This document shows, in pieces, positions 28,882-46,101 of a stretch of DNA of 59,188 bases. The notes beneath the pieces were generated by a model. It saw nothing but the letters and a program-made list of their open reading frames with translations, was not told where the DNA came from and searched no databases. A program made the position numbers and the translations under genes. Origin of the DNA: Actinomycetota bacterium (GTDB lineage: Bacteria; Actinomycetota; Acidimicrobiia; Actinomarinales; Actinomarinaceae); the NCBI GenBank assembly GCA_014384285.1, contig JACNGE010000015.1, forward strand, positions 1 through 59,188. Direction: 5' to 3'. Position 1 is the stretch's first letter, and each line of letters begins with the position of its first letter.

Positions 28882-30804
28882 GTGCCAAAAAAAGATTCAA
28901 ACACATATGATTCTAAAGATATAAAAATTCTTGAGGGTCTTGAAGCTGTTCGAAAAAGACCAGCTATGTACATCGGTTCAACCGGCCCGACAGGGTTACA
29001 CCACCTGATTTGGGAGGTAGTAGACAACTCCGTTGATGAAGCTATGGCTGGTAGGTGTACAGCTATCGAGATTCAATTGGAAAAAAACGGATCTGTAACC
29101 GTAGCGGATAACGGTAGTGGAATACCGGTCAAACCACATCCAAAAACTAAAGCTTCAGCATTAACCACAGTCCTTACAACCCTACACGCAGGTGGAAAAT
29201 TTGAATCAGGTGCATACACAGTAAGTGGTGGACTACATGGAGTAGGAATATCTGTTGTTAATGCTCTTTCAGTTTTTGTTAAAGTTGAAGTCCAGAGAGA
29301 TGGTCACGTGTGGAATCAAAACTTTGATTACGGAAAGCCAACTTCAAAAATTAAGAAAGGCAAAGTTTCAAAAAAAACAGGAACAAAAGTCAATTTTCTT
29401 CCAGATCCCGATATTTTTACAGAAACCCAAACTTTTGAATACAACATAGTTTCTGAGAGAATGAGGCAAACAGCATTTTTAAACAAAGGACTAAAAATTG
29501 TTCTAAAAGATAATAGAGTTAAACCACCAACAAAGGAAGAGTTCCTTTATAAAGGTGGGTTGGTTGATTTTGTAGACTACTTAAACGACGGACACGAGGT
29601 TTTACACGAAAAAACAATTTCTTTTTCAGACAAAGCAAAAGATTCCGAGATAGAAGTTGCAATGCAGTGGAAGGCAGAAGATGAAGTAACTATTAAAAGT
29701 TTTGCAAACAACATTCATACCCTTGAAGGCGGAACCCATGAAGAGGGTCTCAGAACAGCGGTTACTAAGGCTATTAATGATTTTGCAAAATCAAGGAATT
29801 TACATTCAGACATTTCATTAACAGGTGATGATATAAGAGAAGGTTTAACGGGAGTAATCTCGGTACGCGTTCAAGAACCACAGTTTGAAGGCCAAACAAA
29901 AACTAAGCTAGGAAACACTGAAATGAAATCTAAGGTACAGGTATTAGTAAACCAAGAGTTTCCAAAGTGGCTTTCTAAGAATACGAAAGAAGGAAGAGCG
30001 ATTGTAGAAAGATGTGCACTGGCCGCAAAAGCAAGGATGAGTGCAAAGAAAGCAAGAGAGTTAACTAAAAGAAAAAGCATACTTGAAACAGCTGGCCTAC
30101 CTGGAAAACTTGCTGACTGTTCCTCAAAAGATCCTTCAGAGAGCGAGCTGTTTATAGTAGAGGGAGATTCTGCTGCAGGCCCAGCAAAACAAGCTCGAGA
30201 GTCAAGAACACAGGCAATACTACCAATTCGAGGAAAAATTATAAACGTACAAAAAGTTACCGAAAACAGAGCTCTACAAAATGAAGAGATAAGCTCACTT
30301 ATTAAAGCTATTGGTACAGGAATCAAATCAGAGTACAAAGGAGACGAATCTAGATACGATAAAATTATTTTCTTAACAGATGCAGATGTAGATGGTGCAC
30401 ATATTAGAACTCTTCTCCTTACATTCTTTTTTAAATTCATGCCTGGTCTAATAAAAGAAGGAAAAGTGTGGATTGCAGAACCGCCTCTATATAGAGCAAA
30501 GTCAACAGGTGGAGTCAATTACTTAAAAGATGACGAAGCCCTAGAGCAGTTCAAAAAAGAAAACAAGACTAAAAAATTTGATATATCTAGATTCAAAGGC
30601 TTAGGAGAGATGAATGCTGGAGAGTTGTGGGACACAGCTATGAACCCCGAATCAAGAACACTTATAAAAGTAACTATTGCGGATGGTAAAGCCGCAGAAG
30701 CTAAAGCTGCAGACATGTTTGAAATTTTAATGGGTAGTGACGTATCAAGAAGAAAAACATTTATAGAGCAGAATGCTAAAGATGTAAGGTTTCTGGACGT
30801 CTAA
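28882..30804 (+). CDS. gyrB: DNA gyrase subunit B
   Basis: The 640-residue ATPase subunit has EVVDNSVDEAMAGRC (ATP-site Asn/Glu) and GGLHGVGISVVNALS in the GHKL domain, the TOPRIM motif EGDSAAGPAK with the DADVDGAHIRTLLLTFFF metal Asp triad, and a C-terminal YKGLGEMN-type motif (RFKGLGEMNAGELWDTAMNP). The start is GTG at 28882 after AGGAG. The TOPRIM loop reads SAAGPAK instead of the common SAGGSAK. Its stop overlaps the gyrA start (TAATG). Confidence 0.97.
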   Translation: MPKKDSNTYDSKDIKILEGLEAVRKRPAMYIGSTGPTGLHHLIWEVVDNSVDEAMAGRCTAIEIQLEKNGSVTVADNGSGIPVKPHPKTKASALTTVLTTLHAGGKFESGAYTVSGGLHGVGISVVNALSVFVKVEVQRDGHVWNQNFDYGKPTSKIKKGKVSKKTGTKVNFLPDPDIFTETQTFEYNIVSERMRQTAFLNKGLKIVLKDNRVKPPTKEEFLYKGGLVDFVDYLNDGHEVLHEKTISFSDKAKDSEIEVAMQWKAEDEVTIKSFANNIHTLEGGTHEEGLRTAVTKAINDFAKSRNLHSDISLTGDDIREGLTGVISVRVQEPQFEGQTKTKLGNTEMKSKVQVLVNQEFPKWLSKNTKEGRAIVERCALAAKARMSAKKARELTKRKSILETAGLPGKLADCSSKDPSESELFIVEGDSAAGPAKQARESRTQAILPIRGKIINVQKVTENRALQNEEISSLIKAIGTGIKSEYKGDESRYDKIIFLTDADVDGAHIRTLLLTFFFKFMPGLIKEGKVWIAEPPLYRAKSTGGVNYLKDDEALEQFKKENKTKKFDISRFKGLGEMNAGELWDTAMNPESRTLIKVTIADGKAAEAKAADMFEILMGSDVSRRKTFIEQNAKDVRFLDV

Positions 30805-33371
30805 TGGTAGATAAAAAACCCTCACCAAAAAAACCTGCTGCAAAAAAACCTGCTGCAAAAAAACCTGCTGCAAAAAAACCTGCTGCAAAAAAACCTGCTG
30901 CAAAAAAACCTGCTGCAAAAAAACCTGCTGCAAAAAAACCTGCTGCAAAAAAACAACCTATTGAAAAAGAAAACAAAGACATGTTCATTCAAGTTGAAGA
31001 CGAAATTTCAAAATCCTTCCTAGATTATGCTATGTCCGTCATTGTTTCTAGAGCTTTACCAGACGTTAAAGACGGATTAAAACCTGTTCAAAGACGTATC
31101 CTGTATTCAATGTATGAGACAGGAATTAGACCTACAGGTCCATTTAGAAAATGTTCCAAAGTTGTCGGTGATGTAATGGGTAATTATCACCCACACGGTA
31201 ACGATGCAATATATGGTACCTTAGTACGATTAGGTCAACACTTCAGTACAAGATATCCACTAATTGAACCACAAGGTAACTTTGGAACTCCAGACGACCC
31301 TCCAGCAGCAATGAGGTACACAGAGTCCAGAATGTCACAACTGTCTTCACAGCTTTTAGATGGAATAGATGAAGATACAGTAAACTTTGAACCGAATTAT
31401 TCTGGTGAAAGTTCTGAGCCAAAAGTATTACCTGGAAGGTTTCCAAACTTATTAATTAACGGAGCAGAAGGAATAGCTGTTGCAATGGCTACAAATATGC
31501 CCCCTTATAACTTAAGAGAAATAACTGAGGCTGTTAAATTCACACTAAATACTAAAAACCCAAAACCATCAGATTATTTAAAGATTATTAAAGCGCCAGA
31601 TTTTCCAACTGGAGGACTTGTTGTAGACACTCCAACAATTAAAGATGCAATCTTAAAAGGTAGAGGATCAATAAAACTTAGAGCAGTTGCAGATGTAGAA
31701 GAGCTTGGAAAAGGAAAGTCAGCGATTGTTGTTAAAGAGCTACCGTATCAAGCTTCTATAGATAGGATAATGGAAAAAATTGCCTCACTTGTCCAAGATA
31801 AAAAATTAACTGGTGTATCCGATTTAAGAAATGAAAGCAGTGATAGAAATGGTACAAGACTAGTTATAGAGCTAAAAAGAGACGTTGTTCCACAAGTTAT
31901 TTTAAACAAATTATTTAAACAAACGCAACTCCAAGATACTTTCGCTGTAAACTCTGTTGCATTAGTTGACGGAGTTCCTAAAGTTCTTTCTGTTCCACAA
32001 CTCATAAATTATTACATTGACCATCAAATTGATGTAATACAGAGAAGGACCCAGTACAGACTTAAAAAAGCTGAAGCAAGACTACACATTGTTGAAGGTT
32101 TAATTTTAGCCCTAGACAAAATAGACCAAGTAATAAAAGTAATAAGAGCTTCAAAAGATGCTGAAACAGCAAAAACTTCTTTGATGAAAAAATTTAAACT
32201 TTCAGAGATTCAAGCTGGACATATTCTTGATATGCCTTTACGAAGACTCACAGCTCTGGAAAGAGAAAAACTTGAAGAGGAAAAAAGTGAGCTTAAAAAA
32301 ACAATCAAAGAACTAACCGCAATTCTGAAAAGCAGGAAGAGACAAGACGACATTCTTGTAGAGGAATTAGAAGAGATTACTAAAAAGTTTGGAGATGAAA
32401 GAAGATCTCGAGTAGTTCCAGACGTAGGAGAGGTTTCAATCGAAGACTTAATTGAAGATGAAGAAATAATTGTTTCAGTATCTTCTAAAGGATATGTAAA
32501 ATCTGTTCCTTCTACTGCTTATAAAAAACAAGGAAGAGGAGGGAAAGGTGTAAAAGCTGCATCTTCAGACGAGGATGTTATTGAACACTTGTTATCAACT
32601 TCTGTTCATGCTTATCTTTTATTTTTTACCGACCAAGGGAAAGTTTACAGAGCAAAAGCTCATGAGTTACCAAAAACCACCAGAACAGCGCAGGGTTCTT
32701 TAATTCACAACGTACTTTCTATGTCACAAGATGAAAAAGTCCAAGCTATTATTGACACTCGTGACTATGAAACAGAAAAATTCTTATTAATCATGACAGA
32801 AAAAGGGACAGTTAAAAAATCTGCATTCAAGGATTTTGATTCAAACTATAAATCTCTTCAAGCAATCAAGCTTAAAGATGACGACAGAGTTGTTTCAGTG
32901 AAAACAACCTCCGGTAAAGAAGACGTCATTTTGGTTTCAAAAAAGGGCCAAGCAATTCGATTTGATGAAAATAACTTAACACCTCAAGGAAGAACAGCTA
33001 TGGGAGTTAGGGGAATTAAATTGCGTGAAGGTGACGAAGTCGTTGGTGCTGCAACTTCTAGAGATGAAACCCTCTTGTTTATTACTGCAAAAGGATATGG
33101 TAAAAGAACAAACCTTGACGAGTTTAGAAAAGCAGGAAGAGGTGGAATGGGTGTTAAAGCTCTGAAAGTTACTGATGTAAAAGGAGATTTAATCGGAGCA
33201 CGATCTGTAGATGAAGATACAGAGGTTATGCTTATGAGTACAGGTGGAACGGCAATAAGATGTGCAGTGAAGCAAATAAAAAAAATGAGCAGAGCTGCTC
33301 AAGGAGTTAAGGTTATGAAACTTTCCAAAGAAGAGCAAATTTCTGCCTTTATTCCAATAAAAAGTGATTGA
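30804..33371 (+). CDS. gyrA: DNA gyrase subunit A with N-terminal KKPAA-repeat tail
   Basis: The 855-residue protein begins with an extra tail of about 60 residues holding eight KKPAA repeats. The normal GyrA start (IQVEDEISKSFLDYAMSVIV) follows at about residue 61. The breakage domain has catalytic Tyr172 in AAMRYTESRMS. The helix that forms the quinolone pocket reads HPHGNDAIYGT (residues 129-139), with Asn133 and Gly138 where most GyrAs have Asp. The C-terminal beta-pinwheel carries the GyrA-box variant QGRGGKG, needed for DNA wrapping and negative supercoiling. It is coupled to gyrB. Confidence 0.97.
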   Translation: MVDKKPSPKKPAAKKPAAKKPAAKKPAAKKPAAKKPAAKKPAAKKPAAKKQPIEKENKDMFIQVEDEISKSFLDYAMSVIVSRALPDVKDGLKPVQRRILYSMYETGIRPTGPFRKCSKVVGDVMGNYHPHGNDAIYGTLVRLGQHFSTRYPLIEPQGNFGTPDDPPAAMRYTESRMSQLSSQLLDGIDEDTVNFEPNYSGESSEPKVLPGRFPNLLINGAEGIAVAMATNMPPYNLREITEAVKFTLNTKNPKPSDYLKIIKAPDFPTGGLVVDTPTIKDAILKGRGSIKLRAVADVEELGKGKSAIVVKELPYQASIDRIMEKIASLVQDKKLTGVSDLRNESSDRNGTRLVIELKRDVVPQVILNKLFKQTQLQDTFAVNSVALVDGVPKVLSVPQLINYYIDHQIDVIQRRTQYRLKKAEARLHIVEGLILALDKIDQVIKVIRASKDAETAKTSLMKKFKLSEIQAGHILDMPLRRLTALEREKLEEEKSELKKTIKELTAILKSRKRQDDILVEELEEITKKFGDERRSRVVPDVGEVSIEDLIEDEEIIVSVSSKGYVKSVPSTAYKKQGRGGKGVKAASSDEDVIEHLLSTSVHAYLLFFTDQGKVYRAKAHELPKTTRTAQGSLIHNVLSMSQDEKVQAIIDTRDYETEKFLLIMTEKGTVKKSAFKDFDSNYKSLQAIKLKDDDRVVSVKTTSGKEDVILVSKKGQAIRFDENNLTPQGRTAMGVRGIKLREGDEVVGAATSRDETLLFITAKGYGKRTNLDEFRKAGRGGMGVKALKVTDVKGDLIGARSVDEDTEVMLMSTGGTAIRCAVKQIKKMSRAAQGVKVMKLSKEEQISAFIPIKSD
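30828..30947 (+). repeat. 15-bp tandem repeat (8 copies) encoding KKPAA
   Basis: Eight apparently identical copies of AAAAAACCTGCTGCA encode (KKPAA)8 at residues 9-48 of GyrA. Each unit boundary creates a run of seven A residues, a slippage-prone tract. Loss or gain of whole units keeps the frame. Confidence 0.97.
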
Positions 33372-33879: not shown

Positions 33880-34010
33880 CTCTTTAACAAAGAAATTAAA
33901 AAGCGAAGTTAGTGTAAATCTAACACTGTCCCGCAACTGTAATTCGAAAGATAAGTCAGGTCGCCTTTTTAGTTTTATTAAAACACAATCCTCGAGAGAA
34001 GGAATGGAGT
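33880..34010 (+). promoter_or_regulatory. cobalamin (B12) riboswitch
   Basis: The conserved core is visible: AGTGTAAATCTAACACTG, then CCCGCAACTGTAA (B12 box region), then AAGTCAGGTCGCC. A short hairpin TCCTCGAGAGAAGGA (about 33989-34003) lies just ahead of the coding region, so control is probably at translation or RNA folding near the start. It precedes the BtuF-like gene, which supports cobalamin sensing. Confidence 0.9.
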
Positions 34011-34042
34011 ATCAATCTTTCCTCGTGGTAAGAAAGGAAATT

Positions 34043-37172: not shown

Positions 37173-37664
37173 ATGAATAAAAAAAATGTAGTAATTTTTT
37201 GTTTATTTTTTTGTTTGTGTTCCCCCCCTCCTGAAGATGGAATTGTTTCTTTGTCAGGTGATACAACTTCAACTACAACCATAAACATAGAAGACTATCC
37301 AATTGTTTTAACTCAGTGCTTAAATGAAGAAAAAGGGTATGACATAGTAACTCCTTTTGATATACAAGATTTAAAAACAACTATTAGTCAGTTAAGCACA
37401 AGCAAAGATGAAGAATTACAGCTGGGAGAAGATGTTAATTACTGTATTAACAAATACAATCTTTGGTCAGATTCATCTTCACAAAACCCAGAAGAGTTTG
37501 CAAAATTATATGATGAAAATCTTGAATTAGCCAAATGCTTAAGAGAAAAAGGGATAAACGTGGAAGACCCAACCCAACAAGAGCCTAAGCTTGATTTAAG
37601 TGGATTAAAAAGTTCAAAAGACAGTATTACCCTATTGTTACAAGAGTGTGGTTGGGAGAAATAA
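37173..37664 (+). CDS. Cys-repeat exported protein 1 (CxRE-G...DP family)
   Basis: This exported protein of about 163 residues starts MNKKNVVIFCLFFCLCS; an in-frame ATG two codons earlier is the alternative. The lipobox is weak (LFFCLC). After a Thr-rich linker there are two tandem modules: QCLNEEKGYDIVTP...NYCINKYNLW and KCLREKGINVEDP...QECGWEK. Each has one Cys in a C-x-(R/N)-E helix and a second 35-55 residues later, suggesting one disulfide per module. It is a paralogue of the products at 40731, 41473 and 45580. It is convergent with the histidine kinase gene. The function is unknown. Confidence 0.72.
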   Translation: MNKKNVVIFCLFFCLCSPPPEDGIVSLSGDTTSTTTINIEDYPIVLTQCLNEEKGYDIVTPFDIQDLKTTISQLSTSKDEELQLGEDVNYCINKYNLWSDSSSQNPEEFAKLYDENLELAKCLREKGINVEDPTQQEPKLDLSGLKSSKDSITLLLQECGWEK

Positions 37665-37668
37665 GTAT

Positions 37669-38937
37669 TTAAAAACTAACTATAAACTTAGCTCCACCAA
37701 GGTCAGACTTACCTACGGTAATCTTCCAACCATATTTTGAAACAATATTTTTTACAATACTCAAACCAAGACCTTTACCACCAACATTTCTTGTTCTTGA
37801 TTCATCTTCTTGCCAAAAGGGAGTAAATATTAAGTCATAATTTTCTGGATGAATTCCAACTCCATCATCCTCAATGATTACTGAGGGAGCTTTATCAACT
37901 ATCTCGGTACTAATTATTACTTTGTTCGACTTAAATTTTTCTGCATTCCCAATTAAATTGTTAAGCATCAATTTAAGAATTTCTTGGTTTGAATCAACCA
38001 TTATTTCTAGGTTATTTTTGAAATCAACATCGGTATCTTTAATAGTCTTCTTAATTAACTCATTCAAGAGAATTTTCCCATCAGTACCACCACTTTTCGT
38101 AGAAGTCTCAAGGATTAATAAAGCTTCTATTATTGATTGGATTTCAATCACATCTTCTTCGATCCCAATGAGAGTTTTCTCGTCTGTATTGTTTTGTTTT
38201 TTCAACTTTTCGATTTGTAATTTTAAACTTGTTAAAGGTGTTTTTAGTTCATGGGAGGCATTTGAAATAAATTGTTTCTGACTTACTGAACTTATGTGAA
38301 CTTTTTCAAGAAGAGAATTAAATGTCGAAATCAACTTCCCAATTTCATCATTGCTTTTCACATCATCAAGTTTTTCCATTTTGTTTAACGGTTCAAATTT
38401 AGATATTTTTTTGATAGATCGGCTTACAGGTCTTAATGCTATTTCTGTAGAAATTAAAATACCTAAAACGACAAATATTGAAGCAAAAAGATAACTCAGT
38501 ACAAAAAATCTATCCAGGCCGTCAATTGCATTCCTCGAGGTTGACTCATTAAAGCCAACAATAATACTTACTTTTTTGTCTATACTTTCAGTTTTTATAA
38601 AATCTAAATCATTTTCATTTTTTGCAAATTGATTCTTTGCTAAATTGTAATCATCAATGAGACGTGGGGGGAAAAAGCTATATTCCCTTATGAGTTTTCC
38701 ACTTTTCTTATCATAGATAAATACAAAATAATCTCCCAAACGTGGGATATTTCTAAGGTTTAACTTTTTATAATCTTTTTCTAATTGTTCTGCTAAATTA
38801 GCTCTACCATCTTCTAATGTTCTTCTATATCTAACCTCTGCTACTTCTTCTAAAATTTCTGGAGCAACAAAAAAACCACCACCAAGGATCAGAAGAGTTA
38901 ACAATATGATTTTTGACCGTATCCCAATCCTCTTCAT
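37669..38937 (-). CDS. sensor histidine kinase
   Basis: The 422-residue membrane kinase has an N-terminal helix (8-25), an extracytoplasmic sensor region (about 26-142), a second helix (about 143-165), a HAMP linker, and a dimerisation/phosphorylation domain with His229 in SNASHELKTPLTSLK. The HATPase domain follows with N-box LIGNAEKFK, G1 IEDDGVGIHPEN and G2 GGKGLGLSIVK. It shares an operon with the OmpR-type regulator upstream (adjacent, no gap). Neighbouring exported and efflux genes suggest an envelope signal. Confidence 0.95.
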   Translation of the reverse strand: MKRIGIRSKIILLTLLILGGGFFVAPEILEEVAEVRYRRTLEDGRANLAEQLEKDYKKLNLRNIPRLGDYFVFIYDKKSGKLIREYSFFPPRLIDDYNLAKNQFAKNENDLDFIKTESIDKKVSIIVGFNESTSRNAIDGLDRFFVLSYLFASIFVVLGILISTEIALRPVSRSIKKISKFEPLNKMEKLDDVKSNDEIGKLISTFNSLLEKVHISSVSQKQFISNASHELKTPLTSLKLQIEKLKKQNNTDEKTLIGIEEDVIEIQSIIEALLILETSTKSGGTDGKILLNELIKKTIKDTDVDFKNNLEIMVDSNQEILKLMLNNLIGNAEKFKSNKVIISTEIVDKAPSVIIEDDGVGIHPENYDLIFTPFWQEDESRTRNVGGKGLGLSIVKNIVSKYGWKITVGKSDLGGAKFIVSF

Positions 38938-39612
38938 TTAATTCCACCTATACCCAAAACCACGAACAGTTTTAATGTGGTCATCTAAGTTAAAAGGTTT
39001 AAGTTTTTTTCTCAGATATCCTATGTAAACTTCAACTTTATTAACATCTTCTTCGACTGGATATAAAATTTCCCAGATTTCCTCCAATAGTTCATTTTTT
39101 GTCACAATATTTCCATTATTCATTACTAAGAAAGCAAGTAGGTCTAGTTCTTGCTTTGTTAGCTCAATTTCAAGATCCTTACTTGTAACTTTTCTTGCAT
39201 TTAAATCAATCTTTAAATCTTGAAACTCTAACAACGCTTTCTCGTGTCCACCTGTCTTTAAAAGTTTGCGAATTCTTGCCAGCAGTTCAACTGTAGAAAA
39301 AGGCTTTCTCAAATAATCATTTGCACCAGTATCCAACCCTTCTTCGACATCGTATTCACCACCCTTTGCTGTTAACATTATTATCGGAGTTTTCACTCCA
39401 ATCTCTCTAACCTTTGCACAGACTTTATAACCATTCATTTTTGGCATCATGATATCTAAAATTACAAGATCGGGTTGGTCTTCAATGATTTTGTAATATC
39501 CAGATTCCCCATCAAAAGATTGATCAACAAAATACCCCTCATTGACTAAGGACTGTTTTACTAATTCTGATATTTTCTTATCATCTTCAACTAAAAGTAT
39601 TTTTTTAACCAC
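38938..39612 (-). CDS. OmpR-family response regulator
   Basis: The 224-residue protein has a receiver domain with acidic pocket LLVEDDKK, phospho-acceptor Asp53 in LVILDIMMPKMNG, conserved Thr in IIMLTAKGG and Lys in NDYLRKPF. A winged-helix DNA-binding domain occupies residues 125-224 (TKQELDLLAFLV...VEVYIGYLRKKL...VRGFGYRW). It is the first gene of the regulator-kinase operon and divergent from the exported helical protein at 39743. Repeated AACCT/AGGTT elements in the shared promoter gap are candidate binding sites. Confidence 0.96.
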   Translation of the reverse strand: MVKKILLVEDDKKISELVKQSLVNEGYFVDQSFDGESGYYKIIEDQPDLVILDIMMPKMNGYKVCAKVREIGVKTPIIMLTAKGGEYDVEEGLDTGANDYLRKPFSTVELLARIRKLLKTGGHEKALLEFQDLKIDLNARKVTSKDLEIELTKQELDLLAFLVMNNGNIVTKNELLEEIWEILYPVEEDVNKVEVYIGYLRKKLKPFNLDDHIKTVRGFGYRWN

Positions 39613-39661
39613 AACTTAATAATGACAATATAAATTTATTTATCAAGTGATTGGATTTATT

Positions 39662-39704
39662 AACCTCAGGAACCTCACAGGTTTTTAAGGATACCATAAG
39701 GTTT
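39662..39704. promoter_or_regulatory. candidate response-regulator binding repeats
   Basis: The pentamer AACCT or its complement occurs four times: 39662, 39671, 39679 (as AGGTT) and 39699 (as AGGTT). The middle pair forms AACCTCACAGGTT, an inverted repeat. The cluster lies between the divergent regulator gene and the exported-protein gene, where an OmpR-type regulator would bind. The assignment is inference. Confidence 0.4.
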
Positions 39705-39742
39705 CATCCGCTATAAAAGAGTATGAAAAAGAAAGGACGAAT

Positions 39743-40222
39743 ATGAAAAAATCATTATTAGGAATAGGTGTTTTTGGTCTTGCTCTCGGTGCAGGTATTG
39801 TTGGCATTTCTTATGCGTCGGAAATTCCTATGGCTAAAGAGGTATTTATTCAAGATGAGGTTTCTCCGAATGAAGGTGGCAAACACAATCTGTTAGAAGA
39901 TGTTCTAGAAGGACTAGTTGAAGAAGAGGCTTTATCGGTAGAGCAGGCTGACACCATATTGAACACAATGGCGGCAAGAAAGCTTGAGATGAAAGCGGAA
40001 AGAGAAGAAATCAAAAATCTAATTAAAGAAATGTTTGAAGATGGAGAAATTACAGTAGTAGAACTAGATTCTGTAACAACTATAGATCAAGAAAAAATAG
40101 ATCGATTTAAAGATCACTTTTCAGAGGAGCTTGAAGATGGTGTGATTTCAGAGGAAGAGTTTAAAGATAATATTAAAAGTCACCACAGAAAAGGACACCA
40201 TAAGTCGAAAGGCAATAAGTAA
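39743..40222 (+). CDS. exported acidic helical protein with EF-hand-like segments
   Basis: The 159-residue product has a signal peptide (MKKSLLGIGVFGLALGAGIV, cleavage near SYAS). The mature part is acidic and strongly helical. It contains several 'DG-x-I/L-(S/T)-x-E-E/Q' steps (EDGEITVVELD, EDGVISEEEFKD, EEEALSVEQAD), which resemble EF-hand-like or SHOCT-like short helix pairs. It ends in a basic His/Lys tail (HHRKGHHKSKGNK). GAAAGGA precedes the start. Being divergent from the response regulator, it may be its main target, for example a periplasmic stress or metal-sensing protein. I do not recognise a named family. Confidence 0.7.
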   Translation: MKKSLLGIGVFGLALGAGIVGISYASEIPMAKEVFIQDEVSPNEGGKHNLLEDVLEGLVEEEALSVEQADTILNTMAARKLEMKAEREEIKNLIKEMFEDGEITVVELDSVTTIDQEKIDRFKDHFSEELEDGVISEEEFKDNIKSHHRKGHHKSKGNK

Positions 40223-40235
40223 GTAGTTGAGTATT

Positions 40236-40268
40236 TGTGTATTGGTTTTCTCCCTTGTCCAATACACA
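40236..40268 (+). terminator. hairpin after the exported helical-protein gene
   Basis: A perfect 10-bp stem, TGTGTATTGG / CCAATACACA, encloses a 13-base pyrimidine-rich loop and is followed by only three T residues. It ends 17 bases before the next start codon. It could be a weak terminator or an RNA stabiliser separating the two genes. Confidence 0.5.
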
Positions 40269-40285
40269 TTTACTAAAATGTAACC

Positions 40286-40726
40286 ATGAAAAAATTAATA
40301 CCTGAAACAATCGTAAATAAAATTCCAAGTAATAAATTTGTCTACTATTTTTGTTTGTTATTAGTTACATTCAATTTATTTAGAAGCCTTGAACATATAT
40401 TTGCTGAAGATGGTGGAGCTGAATCTATTGCAGGCATTCCATTAAATAGCTACTCAGAGGAAGCTGCAAACAACATTGTTTCAATATTTGCTCAGTGGGG
40501 TTTTTCACAGCTAGTTTTAGCTTGCATGTTATTACTTGTTGTTTTAAAAATGAGGGAATTAATACCTCTTATGTTGCTTATTATTGCTTTAGAAAATATT
40601 TTAAGAGGAGCAGTGGGGTTATATAAGCCTTTAATTTTAGGAGATGCTCCTCCAGGGGCAGTTTCTCCAATTATTGGTTTAGTAACTTTAGTTGTTTTAT
40701 TTATTTCGATAAGAGAAAACAATTAA
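40286..40726 (+). CDS. four-helix membrane protein, unknown function
   Basis: The 146-residue product has hydrophobic segments at about 20-38, 70-88, 92-112 and 124-142. Between the first two is an extracytoplasmic loop with EHIFAEDGGAESIAGIPLNSYSEEAAN. I do not recognise the family. It precedes the Cys-repeat lipoprotein gene by 4 bases, so the two are very likely co-translated and may act together. Confidence 0.72.
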   Translation: MKKLIPETIVNKIPSNKFVYYFCLLLVTFNLFRSLEHIFAEDGGAESIAGIPLNSYSEEAANNIVSIFAQWGFSQLVLACMLLLVVLKMRELIPLMLLIIALENILRGAVGLYKPLILGDAPPGAVSPIIGLVTLVVLFISIRENN

Positions 40727-40730
40727 AATT

Positions 40731-41321
40731 ATGAAAAAAAATTTAAACACCTTCTTATTACTTCTATTTGTTCTTTTCTCGGCGTGCTCATCATCGGATG
40801 AATCGCAAGGAGTTGTTTCTACAAATAATTTATCAGGTGATACAACAGTTACAACAATTGCAGAGGAAGTCGTTGAAGATGTAGTTTCCGTTGAAGATGC
40901 ACAGCTTTTACTAGCTAGGTGCTTAAGAGAAAATGGATATGATATTACAGATCCTAAAAATGGTGAGAGTTTACGAAGTGTTTTGCAGCCGGTATTTTTA
41001 GCTGTTGATCAAAAAGGTAGAGACGAACTTTTTGAGACTATAGAGACTTGTTCTGAAGATAACAACATTCCACTAGGTGGGAGAGCAGATTTTGAGAATC
41101 CAGAAGAAGTTGCAGAACAGTTAGATTCCGAGCTTGAAATTGCGCAATGTTTTAGAGAAAAAGGGATAGAGGTTGAAGACCCTAACGCAGAAAGATCACT
41201 TAGAAGTATAATTTCTGGGCTTGTTCAGTCAGGACAATACTTACAAGAACAAATCAGAGAAGTACGGGCAGCGTGTTTTGATGATCTTGGACGCGAACCT
41301 CCACAACAAGGAGGGCGTTAG
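40731..41321 (+). CDS. Cys-repeat lipoprotein 2 (CxRE-G...DP family)
   Basis: The 196-residue lipoprotein has lipobox LFSAC near residue 19 and a Ser/Thr-rich linker. Two modules follow: RCLRENGYDITDP...ETCSEDN and QCFREKGIEVEDP...AACFDDLG. It is the most regular copy, with both modules sharing SLRS(V/I)(L/I) after the DP. It ends in a Gly/Gln/Arg tail. Linked to the four-helix membrane protein. Related 'CMR-x-x-G...PDP' proteins are widespread in Actinobacteria near MacB-type ABC systems, from my general knowledge; their function is not established. Confidence 0.75.
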   Translation: MKKNLNTFLLLLFVLFSACSSSDESQGVVSTNNLSGDTTVTTIAEEVVEDVVSVEDAQLLLARCLRENGYDITDPKNGESLRSVLQPVFLAVDQKGRDELFETIETCSEDNNIPLGGRADFENPEEVAEQLDSELEIAQCFREKGIEVEDPNAERSLRSIISGLVQSGQYLQEQIREVRAACFDDLGREPPQQGGR

Positions 41322-41472
41322 GTATACCGCTCTTGGACCGGCAGATCTGGAGCCTGTCATAAATGCACTAGATAATCCGATTCGAGTTAGTCGCGAAGCC
41401 AAGAATTAGACTGTTTCTAACCTCTACCGCTTCAAGGCGGAGGTTAAAACAACACATAATTTATAATCTTAT

Positions 41473-42072
41473 ATGTACAGAAAAGCCTCAATAATATTAG
41501 CTTTGTTTACTGCTTGTTCGCTATTCCAACAAGAAGAACAAGCTATTGTTTCAGTTGCAGAAACCGATAAAGGAAAAGAGGCGATTGCTCTTGGCGTTGA
41601 ACTTACAGATAAACGGGAAGAAATTTCAGATGAAGATGCCCCACTAGTCCTTGTTCAGTGTGTAAATGAGTATGGTTATAAATTTAAAGAGCCAAAAAAC
41701 TTTTTAGATTTATATACAACCGTCGCTTCCTACTTTGAAACTTTAACCACTCAAGAACAAGATGAATTATGGAGCAAAATAGAAGACTGTGCTCTAGAGT
41801 ACAACTTATGGGGAGTTGCAGACGAGAATCAATTCGAGGACCCAGTTCAAACTGCAAAAGAGTTAGATAGGGCACTATTTATTGCAAGTTGCTTTAGAGA
41901 GAGTGGATACTCCAAAGTTCCAGACCCGAATTACTTTAATAGAGATGTAAATCTTGACGCATACACAACTGAAGAATGGGATTTTAGTGAAGATGATCCA
42001 ATTGTTAAGACATGGCAGGCATGTGAAGACAAACTACCAGAGGAGTTAAAAAATGATGAATGGGATGTTTAA
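41473..42072 (+). CDS. Cys-repeat lipoprotein 3 (CxRE-G...DP family)
   Basis: This 199-residue lipoprotein starts MYRKASIILALFTAC, so the modified Cys is residue 15. Module 1 reads QCVNEYGYKFKEP...EDCALEYNLW; the ending is like that of copy 1 (CINKYNLW), which suggests these two are closest relatives. Module 2 reads SCFRESGYSKVPDP...QACEDKLP. It lies 63 bases upstream of the efflux adaptor gene and may be in the same transcript. Confidence 0.74.
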   Translation: MYRKASIILALFTACSLFQQEEQAIVSVAETDKGKEAIALGVELTDKREEISDEDAPLVLVQCVNEYGYKFKEPKNFLDLYTTVASYFETLTTQEQDELWSKIEDCALEYNLWGVADENQFEDPVQTAKELDRALFIASCFRESGYSKVPDPNYFNRDVNLDAYTTEEWDFSEDDPIVKTWQACEDKLPEELKNDEWDV

Positions 42073-42135
42073 AAAACGCAATAAATTAATTTCTCAGAAA
42101 ACTCAAAGGTTTAATAAACTAATCTAGTTAGAACA

Positions 42136-43722
42136 ATGGTGAAAAATATATTTAAATTAAAAAACTTATACTTGTTAATTGCTGTAGTTGCCTTAGCTTA
42201 CGTAGGTTATTATTTTGGTACTCAAAATACTGAAAATACAACCTCTAATAAAACCTTAGAACTGACTACAGTTTCAATTCAAAAAGGTGACTTAGAAAAA
42301 AAAGAAGAATACAACGGAACCCTAAGACAAACTGACAGCAAGGTGTTGAATTCACCAATGTCAGGTGTCATAACATATATTCCAAAAGAGGGAACAGTAA
42401 TTAGTTTTGGAGAAGTACTTTTTGCCGTTGACAATAAACCTGTAATTTTACTTGAAGGCACGACCCCTTTTTACAGAACCCTTGACTTGAACTCTAATCC
42501 TGGACCAGATGTTTTACAGTTAGAGGAAGCACTAATTTATTTAGGATACGCCGCAGAAGATTTTGTTTCTGATGAAACTTTTGATGAGACAACATCAAAT
42601 ATGTTAAACAAACTGTACCTTGACTATAAAATTGATACAAAATCTGAAATTACCCCTGCAGAGCAAGTTGCAATTAATCTGAAAAAGACAGAAGTAGAAA
42701 ATATTGAAGAAACAATTTCAGATGGTGGAATTTCTTTAGCGCAAGTTAATGATAAGAAAAAGAAACTAGACGATGCAAGAGAAGCAGCTACTGAAGAGAG
42801 CACAGCTTGGAAAGCAGCAGATACTGCCATCAAAAACGCAGAAGAAAGCTTAACTCTATACAGAGATGAAACGAATCCTAAAACAAAAGAAAAGAAAGCA
42901 AATGGAACATTATATTCTGCTATAGAAGATTTAGAGCAAACAATTGAGGAGCAAAAAAGAATCAAAGCTCTAGAAAAAGGTAAAGATTCAGTCATTGATG
43001 CCACAGAGGCTTTAGCTATTGAGACAGCTCAAAAAGCATATGACAATGCTTTGGAAGAATACAATAAAGGAGTCGACCAAGCAGCAGAATTAGCAAAAGC
43101 AAAAGAAGAGTTAAAAGAACTAGAATTAGCTTCAAGATCAGAAACATTTAGCCCAACAAATGCTTATGCTTCCGGAACCTCAATAATTGTCGGTTCTTAT
43201 GTTAACGATGTAGGCTCAGCTGTGGTATTAAATTCACCACTTTATAATATTTCATCTATTGGAATCGAAGTAGTTTTCCAAGTTGATGCATCAGATCAAG
43301 AGACAGTTTCTCTCGGCGATAGTGTTGAGATTGAACTACCAACTGATGAGAGAGTCCTGACGGTAATTAGTTTTATAGACCAGGTCGTTACACAAACCCA
43401 GGCTGGAGAATTTATAGAGGTAACTCTAGAAGTACTAAATCCTGAAGAAATCGAAGCATATGATCAGGCTCCAGTGAAGGTATTTGTAACAACAGAAATC
43501 TCTGCGGGCGTACTTTATGTCCCTGTAAATGCTCTACTTGCTCTAGCAGAAGGTGGTTATGCGTTAGAGGTATATGAAGGAGAAGTTGAAACGGGAACCT
43601 TTAATGGTGAATCTGGCGTCGACACAAGTTATATCGCAGTTGAAATAGGCGTATTCACAGACGGATTTGTGGAAGTAAAAGGAAATATTTCAGAAGGACA
43701 AGTAGTAGTCGTACCAAGATGA
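42136..43722 (+). CDS. MacA/HlyD-like adaptor with peptidoglycan-binding domain
   Basis: The 528-residue protein has an N-terminal membrane anchor (about 10-26), a barrel-sandwich start (GTLRQTDSKVLNSPMSGVITYIP), and a peptidoglycan-binding-like insertion (NPGPDVLQLEEALIYLGY, about 116-160). A long Lys/Glu/Ala coiled-coil hairpin (about 175-335), a second lipoyl half, a beta-barrel and a C-terminal VEVKGNISEGQVVVVPR complete it. This layout is typical of Gram-positive adaptors paired with MacB. It overlaps the ATPase gene by 4 bases. It probably links the ABC permease to the cell wall. Confidence 0.9.
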   Translation: MVKNIFKLKNLYLLIAVVALAYVGYYFGTQNTENTTSNKTLELTTVSIQKGDLEKKEEYNGTLRQTDSKVLNSPMSGVITYIPKEGTVISFGEVLFAVDNKPVILLEGTTPFYRTLDLNSNPGPDVLQLEEALIYLGYAAEDFVSDETFDETTSNMLNKLYLDYKIDTKSEITPAEQVAINLKKTEVENIEETISDGGISLAQVNDKKKKLDDAREAATEESTAWKAADTAIKNAEESLTLYRDETNPKTKEKKANGTLYSAIEDLEQTIEEQKRIKALEKGKDSVIDATEALAIETAQKAYDNALEEYNKGVDQAAELAKAKEELKELELASRSETFSPTNAYASGTSIIVGSYVNDVGSAVVLNSPLYNISSIGIEVVFQVDASDQETVSLGDSVEIELPTDERVLTVISFIDQVVTQTQAGEFIEVTLEVLNPEEIEAYDQAPVKVFVTTEISAGVLYVPVNALLALAEGGYALEVYEGEVETGTFNGESGVDTSYIAVEIGVFTDGFVEVKGNISEGQVVVVPR

Positions 43723-44402
43723 AAGCCAGTACAAAAACTGTAATTTCTATAAATAACATTTCAAAAGTTTATGAAGGACCTCCACCTGTAAAAGCTCTAG
43801 ATGGTGTTTCTCTCGAAATTAAAGAGGGTGATTTGGTTTCTATAGTTGGTCAATCAGGAAGTGGAAAATCAACATTCTTAAACATGATTGGCTTATTAGA
43901 CAGTATTACAGATGGATCGATTGAGATTGAGGGAAGAGACGTATCAGAACTCTCAGATAACCAACTATCAAAATTTAGAGGAGAAAAAATTGGCTTTATT
44001 TTTCAAAGCTTTTTTCTCTTACCTGGTCTTACAGCTCAGGAAAATGTAGCAGAAGGACTTTTATACCAAGGCATTTCTAGATCGGATAGATTAGAAAAGG
44101 CTAAAAAAGTATTAAAGCAAGTAGGCCTAGGAGATAGATTGACTCATGAACCTAAGGAGCTATCTGGTGGACAGCAGCAAAGGGTTGCAATTGCCAGAGC
44201 ACTTGTTCAAGATCCTGCATTTATATTAGCTGACGAGCCAACAGGAAACTTAGACAAGGAGTCTGGAATAAATATTTTGAACATCTTAAAAGACTTAAAC
44301 AATCAAGGTAAAACTGTAATAATGATTACCCATAATCAAGAACATGCAAATACGTTCAATAAAGTAATTGAATTGGTTGATGGAAGAATAGTAAATTCAT
44401 GA
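43719..44402 (+). CDS. MacB-type ABC transporter ATPase
   Basis: The 227-residue protein has Walker A GQSGSGKST (about 43-51), Q-loop FIFQSFFLLPGLTAQEN, signature LSGGQQQR and Walker B FILADEPTGNLD with H-loop MITHNQ. It is the separate ATPase half of a MacAB-like exporter. ATG overlaps link it to the adaptor upstream and the permease downstream (4 bases each), so all three are made together. Confidence 0.95.
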   Translation: MKASTKTVISINNISKVYEGPPPVKALDGVSLEIKEGDLVSIVGQSGSGKSTFLNMIGLLDSITDGSIEIEGRDVSELSDNQLSKFRGEKIGFIFQSFFLLPGLTAQENVAEGLLYQGISRSDRLEKAKKVLKQVGLGDRLTHEPKELSGGQQQRVAIARALVQDPAFILADEPTGNLDKESGINILNILKDLNNQGKTVIMITHNQEHANTFNKVIELVDGRIVNS

Positions 44403-45583
44403 AGAGAAAAAAACTAAAAATCAGAGATCTTTTTTTTGTAGCTTTATATGGAGTGAGAGCAAGAAAAGGAAGAGCAACACTCACTTCTATAGGTATAGGT
44501 ATTGGAATAGCTGCAATAGTTGCTGTATCTGGTATTTCTGCTTCTGGAAGAGCAGATCTTCTTTCAACTCTAGAGTCTTTAGGTACAAATCTCATAAAAG
44601 CATCTCCTCAAGCAGGTTTTTTCGGGACACAAGAAGATCTTCCAAAAGGTGTTTTAGGAATGGTTGAAAGAATTGGTCCAGTTCAAGAAGTTACCTCTAC
44701 AACACAGACCGATCTTCTAGTAAGGCGAAGTAATTTTATTTCAGAGTTTGAAGGTGGTGGAATTTCAACAATTGTTACAAATGCAGAACTATTAGATGTT
44801 ATCGGAGGAAAGTTAGTTGATGGAAGGTTTATTCAGAGCGGATTATCAGATATTCCAGTAACAGTGCTAGGTAGCGTTACAGCTGAGAGACTTGGAATTA
44901 ACAATTTAACTAAACCAACAAAAATTTTAATAGAAAATGAATGGTTTGGAGTTATTGGCATACTAGAAGAATTAAAAATTCATCCAGATTTAGATCGATC
45001 AGTGTTCATTGGCTATGGTGTAGCAGAGACACTATTTGGCATAGAGGAAGAGCCTACAACTATTTATGTAAGGGCAAATCCAACATACATTGAAGACGTT
45101 GTAGAAGTACTTGCCCCATCAATGAATCCAGAAAACCCTGATCAAGTTGAAGTCACCCGTCCATCAGATGCACTCGAAGCACAACAAGCAGCAGAAGAGG
45201 CTTTTACCAACCTATTACTAGGTTTGGGATCAGTTGCCTTACTTGTTGGAGGAGTTGCAATAGCAAATGTTATGGTCATGTCTGTTCTTGAACGAAGGAT
45301 GGAAATTGGCGTAAGAAGGTCAATCGGCGCGACTAGAAGAGAAATACGATACCAGTTTCTATTGGAAAGTATTGTTTTATCGGGCATAGGAGGTCTTGTT
45401 GGAGTAGTTCTGGGTGCGGTGATAACCCTGGGTTATACTAATTACACAAATATTGTATTCTCTATACCTGTATGGCAAATATTTGGAGCAGTACTCGTAG
45501 CTTTACTAATCGGAGCAATATCTGGTGTGTATCCAGCTATAAAAGCATCAAAGATACAGCCGGCAGAAGCAGTGAGAAAGTAA
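44399..45583 (+). CDS. MacB-type ABC transporter permease
   Basis: The 394-residue permease has an N-terminal helix (about 28-48), a large extracytoplasmic MacB core domain (about 50-275), then three helices of an FtsX domain with VLERRMEIGVRRSIGATRRE between the first two, and ends PAIKASKIQPAEAVRK. It forms a tripartite system with the adaptor and ATPase. Unlike proteobacterial MacB, no TolC partner is expected in this lineage. The last Cys-repeat lipoprotein starts at or inside its 3' end. Confidence 0.94.
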   Translation: MKRKKLKIRDLFFVALYGVRARKGRATLTSIGIGIGIAAIVAVSGISASGRADLLSTLESLGTNLIKASPQAGFFGTQEDLPKGVLGMVERIGPVQEVTSTTQTDLLVRRSNFISEFEGGGISTIVTNAELLDVIGGKLVDGRFIQSGLSDIPVTVLGSVTAERLGINNLTKPTKILIENEWFGVIGILEELKIHPDLDRSVFIGYGVAETLFGIEEEPTTIYVRANPTYIEDVVEVLAPSMNPENPDQVEVTRPSDALEAQQAAEEAFTNLLLGLGSVALLVGGVAIANVMVMSVLERRMEIGVRRSIGATRREIRYQFLLESIVLSGIGGLVGVVLGAVITLGYTNYTNIVFSIPVWQIFGAVLVALLIGAISGVYPAIKASKIQPAEAVRK

Positions 45584-46101
45584 AACTCTTCTGCCTAGTA
45601 GTCGTTCTTTCAGCATGCACAATAGGCGAAGAACAATCTGAAGGTGTTGTAACAATAGATTCTACAACTGCAATTACAACCGTAGCCGAAGAGATAACTT
45701 TTGAAGAAGGGGTACTAAATTTTGCACAATGTATGAGAGAAGAAGGAATCGACTTCCCTGATCCAAGTTTTGATATTGATGGAAATCCTGAGTTTGATAA
45801 CGTAAATATTGAAAATGATACTGAATTTGAAGCAGCTTTTGATAATTGTGAAAATATCTTAAGAGAAGCTTTGCCGGAACAATTTGACCTTGATCCAGAG
45901 GTTGAGGCAGCCTTGGTTGATGCATCTTTAGAGTTTTCTCAATGCATGAGAGAACAGGGAATTGATTTTCCTGACCCTAAACCTGGTGAATTTGGCTTTT
46001 TTGCGTTTAGAGATGCCGATATTGATTTTCAGTCAGAAGAGGTCCAAGAAGCTTTTGAAATATGCCAACCTGAAAACCCTCTCGATAACCTTGACGATTA
46101 G
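45580..46101 (+). CDS. Cys-repeat lipoprotein 4 (CxRE-G...DP family), start codon unclear
   Basis: The frame encodes a good lipoprotein signal, VKLFCLVVVLSAC, followed by a Thr-rich linker and two modules: QCMREEGIDFPDP...DNCENIL and QCMREQGIDFPDP...EICQPENP. These are the closest of the four to the actinobacterial 'CMR-x-x-G...PDP' form. No ATG, GTG or TTG lies in frame just before the signal. The nearest ATG (45472) is inside the permease gene and would add 36 non-signal residues. I place a tentative GTA start at 45580, overlapping the permease TAA. Confidence 0.65.
   Translation, partial: VKLFCLVVVLSACTIGEEQSEGVVTIDSTTAITTVAEEITFEEGVLNFAQCMREEGIDFPDPSFDIDGNPEFDNVNIENDTEFEAAFDNCENILREALPEQFDLDPEVEAALVDASLEFSQCMREQGIDFPDPKPGEFGFFAFRDADIDFQSEEVQEAFEICQPENPLDNLDD

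Follow-up and report, generated by a model that had tools for sequence, protein, structure and literature searches.

The locus described here lies at positions 37173 to 46101 of a stretch of 59,188 nucleotides (the window; contig JACNGE010000015.1 of assembly GCA_014384285.1) from the 1.10 Mb genome of a tiny marine actinobacterium that probably belongs to the genus Candidatus Actinomarina; both the genome size and the heliorhodopsin genes carried by 34 of the 39 genomes of its genus are in keeping with this name (PMC7771536). It encodes four cysteine (Cys) lipoproteins, lip1 to lip4, together with a MacA-like adaptor, an ATPase and a permease of a MacAB-like ATP-binding cassette (ABC) exporter. 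The forward gene lip1 is followed by a histidine kinase (HK) and a response regulator (RR), both on the reverse strand, and then, again on the forward strand, by an acidic exported protein, a four-helix membrane protein, lip2, lip3, the adaptor, the ATPase, the permease and lip4. The lipoproteins are duplicated members of one family, they share a short motif behind the lipid-bearing Cys, and across the Actinobacteria the linkage to such an exporter is near-obligate. Since they are almost always encoded directly before the same wall-binding exporter, they are very probably an overlooked extra part of it. Exporters of this kind are known, whereas the lipoprotein component, the motif it carries and the near-obligate linkage are undescribed as far as our searches go: no paper on this type of operon was found in the open-access literature, and the family has no entry in any curated library searched, with no match in Pfam, NCBIfam and the PDB sequence profiles. 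The lipoprotein is present in many genera, including antibiotic producers, where it is annotated merely as "hypothetical protein". The features of the locus are as follows.

37173..37664, forward: lip1, two-module Cys lipoprotein; module Cys 49/91 and 122/159; weak lipobox, lipid Cys16
37239..37253, forward: GIVSL, juxtamembrane motif of lip1, 8 residues past the lipid Cys
37669..38937, reverse: sensor histidine kinase (HisKA, HATPase_c); optional insertion in the genus, orthologs in 4-5 of 39 genomes
38938..39612, reverse: OmpR/PhoB-type response regulator; in the optional block with the kinase
39743..40222, forward: acidic exported protein, divergent from the regulator; in 3 sampled genomes only
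40286..40726, forward: four-helix membrane protein; optional, in 9 sampled genomes
40731..41321, forward: lip2, two-module Cys lipoprotein; lipid Cys19; module Cys 64/107 and 140/182
40809..40823, forward: GVVST, juxtamembrane motif of lip2, 9 residues past the lipid Cys
41473..42072, forward: lip3, two-module Cys lipoprotein; lipid Cys15
41542..41556, forward: AIVSV, juxtamembrane motif of lip3, 10 residues past the lipid Cys
42136..43722, forward: MacA-like adaptor with peptidoglycan-binding domain and an insert of about 150 residues that likely forms a coiled coil
43719..44402, forward: MacB/LolD-type ABC ATPase
44399..45583, forward: MacB-type permease (MacB_PCD, FtsX)
45580..46101, forward: lip4, two-module Cys lipoprotein; lipid Cys13; module Cys 51/90 and 122/162; GTA at the start position
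45643..45657, forward: GVVTI, juxtamembrane motif of lip4, 10 residues past the lipid Cys

The lipoprotein family, its modules and its motif

The alignment of lip1 to lip4 contains 20 invariant columns, the four module Cys included, and a single family profile searched against the own genome gave 11 rows, among which all four proteins were retrieved (E-values of 1.9e-53, 6.0e-53, 2.1e-48 and 1.3e-43). This confirms the proposal of a first-pass annotation of the window that the two-module Cys proteins starting at 37173, 40731, 41473 and 45580 form one family, and the Cys pair is indeed kept in all eight modules; it is likewise invariant when the orthologs of each of the four proteins are compared across about 20 genomes of the genus. 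Across 74 members from many genera both Cys and the Gly of each module are invariant, as are an Arg and the D-P pair of the second module, and beyond this Cys/Gly/Pro scaffold the modules retain little. In a profile-profile comparison with hhalign, module 1 matched module 2 with a probability of 99.9% and a score of 137, compared to maxima of 8.4% and 16.3 for 60 column-shuffled control profiles; judged by sequence, the two modules go back to one ancestor through an ancient internal duplication. A lipoprotein signal had previously been assigned to three of the four proteins, a count that needs to be raised: lip1 has a weak lipobox in the window genome and a canonical lipobox in several of its orthologs, and all four proteins are probably lipoproteins.

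AlphaFold2 models of lip4 and lip2, built on alignments of 74 rows, are confident for most of the module sequence (predicted local distance difference test, pLDDT, mostly 80-97 by block) and have a common plan: in each module the first Cys lies near the end of one helix, the P-D-P loop follows, and the second Cys sits on a later helix. Unrelated folds, the outcome that the first-pass annotation had named as refuting its reading, were not seen for the two proteins modelled, lip2 (40731) and lip4 (45580), which show the same helix plan. As the invariant Cys pair of a module is shared out between its two helices, we infer one disulfide per module. Foldseek returned no solved relative of the lip4 and lip2 models (best E-values of 3.2 and 2.2). 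Matches of the lipoprotein to CX9C/CHCH and to PBP_GOBP were weak, lay under the cut-offs and were set aside, and the anti-phage defence search with PADLOC gave no match for lip2, lip4, the adaptor, the acidic and the four-helix protein.

The motif G-[VI]-[AV]-[ST], which the first-pass annotation had not noted, is present in all four lip proteins of the window and in nearly all of their orthologs. When one signal-peptide rule was applied to all open frames of the 80 loci described below and the motif was counted within 20 residues of the Cys, it was found in 42 of 45 family members versus 1 of 41 other lipoprotein-like frames, at a distance of 7-12, mostly 8-10, residues from the lipid Cys. 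It lies within a weakly conserved linker that the lip4 and lip2 models leave disordered. Short and conserved within a disordered linker, and set at a constant distance from the membrane, the motif suggests that the lipoprotein docks onto the permease or the adaptor. A divergent Cys lipoprotein subfamily (L039, L040, L069, L074 (G040)) is without the motif, has no ABC neighbours and is partly arranged in tandem.

The start of lip4 is unusual. The gene overlaps the permease stop by 4 nt (junction 45571-45600, compared across L197-L216), and of 22 genomes only 3 have ATG at this start, the other 19 having GTA or ATA; in the window ATG, GTG and TTG are absent at the natural start. In one relative (L205) an in-frame stop is located just upstream, and therefore lip4, if it is expressed there, requires either coupled re-initiation at a non-standard start codon or a frameshift. 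Re-initiation is preferred, as the slip site for a -1 frameshift is not conserved in another relative (L200).

Linkage to the exporter and to the two-component system

The permease matches MacB_PCD (7e-16) and FtsX (8e-21), both above cut-off, and in the PDB it matches MacB (4e-27), Spr0695 (5xu1; 1.4e-20), LolF and, weakly, LolC (4e-7), while the best PDB matches of the ATPase are MacB (7e-65), Spr0694 (5xu1; 2e-61) and LolD (1e-57). By these sequence matches the two proteins are identified as a MacB-type (type VII) ABC exporter, and the earlier naming of the kinase, the OmpR/PhoB-type regulator, the ATPase and the MacB permease is borne out by domain and structure matches. The adaptor matches TIGR01730 RND_mfp at 1.2e-7, which is under the curated cut-off, HlyD_3 is above cut-off in one of its relatives, and MacA is not among its PDB matches. 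Its description as wall-binding stands in so far as PG_binding_1 is found at about 1e-10 in six of six relatives and the window adaptor aligns over this domain, but Pfam makes no call in the window protein itself. With 528 residues, versus about 330 in relatives, the window adaptor contains an insert (42630-43170) of about 150 residues after the peptidoglycan-binding domain, which is charged, rich in Ala and Leu, not found in the relatives and probably folds as a helical hairpin or coiled coil.

The family search in named genomes yielded 531 relatives, of which the best 80 loci, from actinobacterial genera such as Amycolatopsis, Actinomadura, Nonomuraea, Micromonospora, Nocardioides and Streptomyces and from Acidimicrobiia, were used for linkage counts; one record in the sample, a metagenome-assembled genome of Bifidobacterium breve, may be mislabelled. 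The loci were found via the lipoprotein family alone and neighbours were counted within 4 kb, and some of the loci counted as misses are short contigs. An adaptor gene is present in 78 loci and lies directly downstream on the same strand in 76, and the complete adaptor-ATPase-permease set is found in 74. A reverse search, run with an adaptor profile, agrees with this: the lipoprotein stands in front in 10 of 11 operons with same-subfamily adaptors, the eleventh being seemingly cut by a contig end, and remote adaptors are mostly without it. A lone adaptor query was too insensitive for a census. The enrichment near such ABC operons, which the first-pass annotation had put forward as a check, together with the reverse search strongly supports its claim that the family belongs to the exporter. 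When 34 diverse loci were compared all against all, the only genes to recur were those for lipoprotein, adaptor, ATPase, permease, HK and RR, and the same gene order was found in an independent phylum-wide genome sample. The annotated row of Streptomyces clavuligerus reads HK, RR, "hypothetical protein", "peptidoglycan-binding domain-containing protein", ABC ATPase and ABC permease. That the genes are neighbours by chance or hitch-hiking, with no functional tie, is highly improbable; the block of HK, RR, acidic and four-helix genes does come and go, but direct adjacency in 76 loci across many genera, the reverse search and the six-gene recurrence all contradict it. In two loci (L037, L041; G036, G057) a second adaptor gene follows the permease, and for this reason the exporter there may use two adaptors.

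HK and RR occur together within 4 kb in 65 of the 80 loci, and in many actinobacteria the neighbouring two-component system probably sets expression. This frequency, and the often divergent orientation of the HK/RR genes relative to the lipoprotein gene, would also be in line with a lipoprotein that serves as a sensor or ligand-presenting accessory of the kinase and reports substrate or envelope redox state. Such a role is improbable given the situation in the genus, where the row lip1-lip2-lip3-adaptor-ATPase-permease-lip4 is constant, some genomes having three lip copies, and the insertions between lip1 and lip2 come and go: the kinase is missing from 34-35 of the 39 genomes, and sampled loci without it retain the exporter and three or four lipoproteins. 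As HK and RR are optional in the genus, regulation cannot be the main role of the lipoproteins there, nor the regulator their main partner. Moreover, in the named loci the sequence distances of the lipoprotein track those of the adaptor most closely (r 0.86), followed by HK (0.74) and least RR (0.66), although these correlations are inflated and confounded by shared ancestry. The earlier picture of the flanking genes thus holds for the conserved adaptor-ATPase-permease core, whereas kinase, regulator, acidic and four-helix genes fall outside the conserved unit in the genus; likewise, control by the regulator fits the phylum-wide neighbourhood but does not extend to the genomes that keep lipoproteins and exporter without the kinase.

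With regard to the regulator as a possible ancestral partner, the window RR has its best match at the lipoprotein locus in only 2 (G040, G045) of 10 genomes searched. In the divergent promoter region between the regulator and the acidic gene (39613-39742) AACCTCA occurs twice and AGGTT twice about 21-22 bp apart; these repeats are partly conserved in two relatives and are suggestive at most of regulator sites. Promoter and terminator scans gave matches at chance level. A study of the Actinomarinales reported no identifiable two-component systems (PMC7771536); unlike this report, we find a HisKA kinase above cut-off in 22 of the 39 genus genomes. The commoner kinase of the genus (e.g., G018:C12, G012:C6; L194, L195) is short, apparently membrane-free and encoded beside a PhoB-like regulator, and its other neighbours are, by appearance, PhoU and polyphosphate kinase genes.

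Proposed substrate capture and alternative roles

With about even confidence we regard lip1 to lip4 as copies, arisen by duplication, of a fourth component that is dedicated to an actinobacterial MacAB-like exporter and captures its substrate. Each lipoprotein would be exported and, judging from the lipobox, anchored by its lipid in the outer leaflet of the cytoplasmic membrane. The motif 8-10 residues from the anchor would dock it to the permease/adaptor assembly close to the membrane, and the two helical modules, each presumably with its disulfide, would reach into the space below the wall-bound adaptor. Their most likely task there would be to pick up an amphiphilic substrate, be it a peptide, a lipid or an antibiotic, at the membrane face and to hand it on, in the presumed direction of transport, into the adaptor channel, driven by ATP-powered movement of the MacB-type permease. 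Capture by the lipoproteins can reasonably be inferred. Tentatively, and with more doubt than confidence, actinobacterial MacAB-like pumps may be four-part machines, in which the lipoprotein docks by its motif onto the permease or adaptor, like a Lol substrate yet as a permanent subunit, and feeds substrate from the membrane face to the wall-bound adaptor; in this genus the part would have been multiplied to four, so that one pump has several substrate receptors.

Several known systems resemble parts of this arrangement. Spr0693-0694-0695 of the Gram-positive Streptococcus pneumoniae, a MacAB-like pump, likewise has one gene each for adaptor, ATPase and MacB permease, but it is in the window-type adaptors that the peptidoglycan-binding domain is found, and to our knowledge no Cys lipoprotein partner of the streptococcal system is known. 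NisI, SpaI and MlbQ are lantibiotic immunity lipoproteins which are, as here, small and encoded beside an ABC exporter in Gram-positives; the PDB profile search with the family showed no sequence match to them, and the exporter here is MacAB-like with an adaptor. The locus shares with MacAB-TolC the MacB_PCD/FtsX permease and a distant adaptor similarity, but it has no outer-membrane channel gene, it encodes ATPase and permease separately and it contains the extra lipoprotein. YknWXYZ of Bacillus subtilis is a MacAB-like pump with a fourth gene that helps the pump, and YknW is a multi-pass membrane protein. The constant fourth gene here encodes instead a lipoprotein with Cys modules; the four-helix protein of the window is optional and has no family match, and a constant fourth gene of the YknW type is absent. 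A further likeness is that YknX is reported to bind peptidoglycan (PMC5985334). In Gram-positives MacAB-like adaptors have no outer membrane to reach and their role is an open question (PMC5985334), on which a near-obligate lipoprotein partner with a putative docking motif offers a direct handle.

In LolCDE, contacts are made with the residues that directly follow the acylated Cys (PMC8333309). The Aat system secretes an acylated protein whose gene lies nearby, and its AatPC is homologous to both LolCDE and MacB (PMC7943197). Like the exporter here, both are type VII ABC machineries, and they handle an acylated protein at its N-terminal residues, as is proposed for the window locus, but there the acylated protein is cargo and no peptidoglycan-binding adaptor is involved. 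By analogy, the lipoproteins themselves might be cargo: a MacB/LolCDE-like permease would pull them out of the membrane, the adaptor, bound to the wall, would carry them outward into the wall or across it, and the motif would be a recognition tag. Such a system would require a tag that keeps a set distance to the lipid, and the permease does match LolC and LolF. We consider this unlikely, since the permease fits MacB far better than LolC and most hosts are not expected to have an outer membrane or another receiving lipid surface. A subunit would show the same fit to adaptor and permease, which is thus not decisive either way.

A purely structural role, in which the lipoprotein holds the adaptor ring in place, gates it or ties the pump to the wall, all without substrate contact (compare the helper YknW), is quite unlikely as well. 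It would account for the strongest link being that to the wall-binding adaptor, for a fixed-distance motif suited to a clamp and for modules that keep little but their scaffold. However, lip1 and lip2 diverge faster within the genus (mean identity of 66% and 63%) than the adaptor (76%), the ATPase (87%) and the permease (91%), and four differing copies look more like parts that meet variable substrates.

Several points weigh against substrate capture by a dedicated pump component. No structural or sequence relative of known function was found in Pfam, NCBIfam, the PDB or by Foldseek; the members at L054 and L059 have adjacent ABC genes and yet no motif; the 80 loci are the top scorers of a single profile, with a bias towards Amycolatopsis, Actinomadura and Streptosporangiaceae; and the distance correlations share the ancestry effect named above. 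Finally, the net charge of the lipoprotein is not conserved, relatives being near neutral on average, and electrostatic capture was therefore rejected as unlikely.

Other features of the window

Outside the locus, GyrA begins with a run of P-A-A-K-K repeats (30804-30960) resembling a histone H1 tail, and similar Lys-rich tails are also present in relatives from the genus (L044, L045). A cobalamin riboswitch (33881-34015, 65.4 bits) is located upstream of a gene for a BtuF-like binding protein at 34004.

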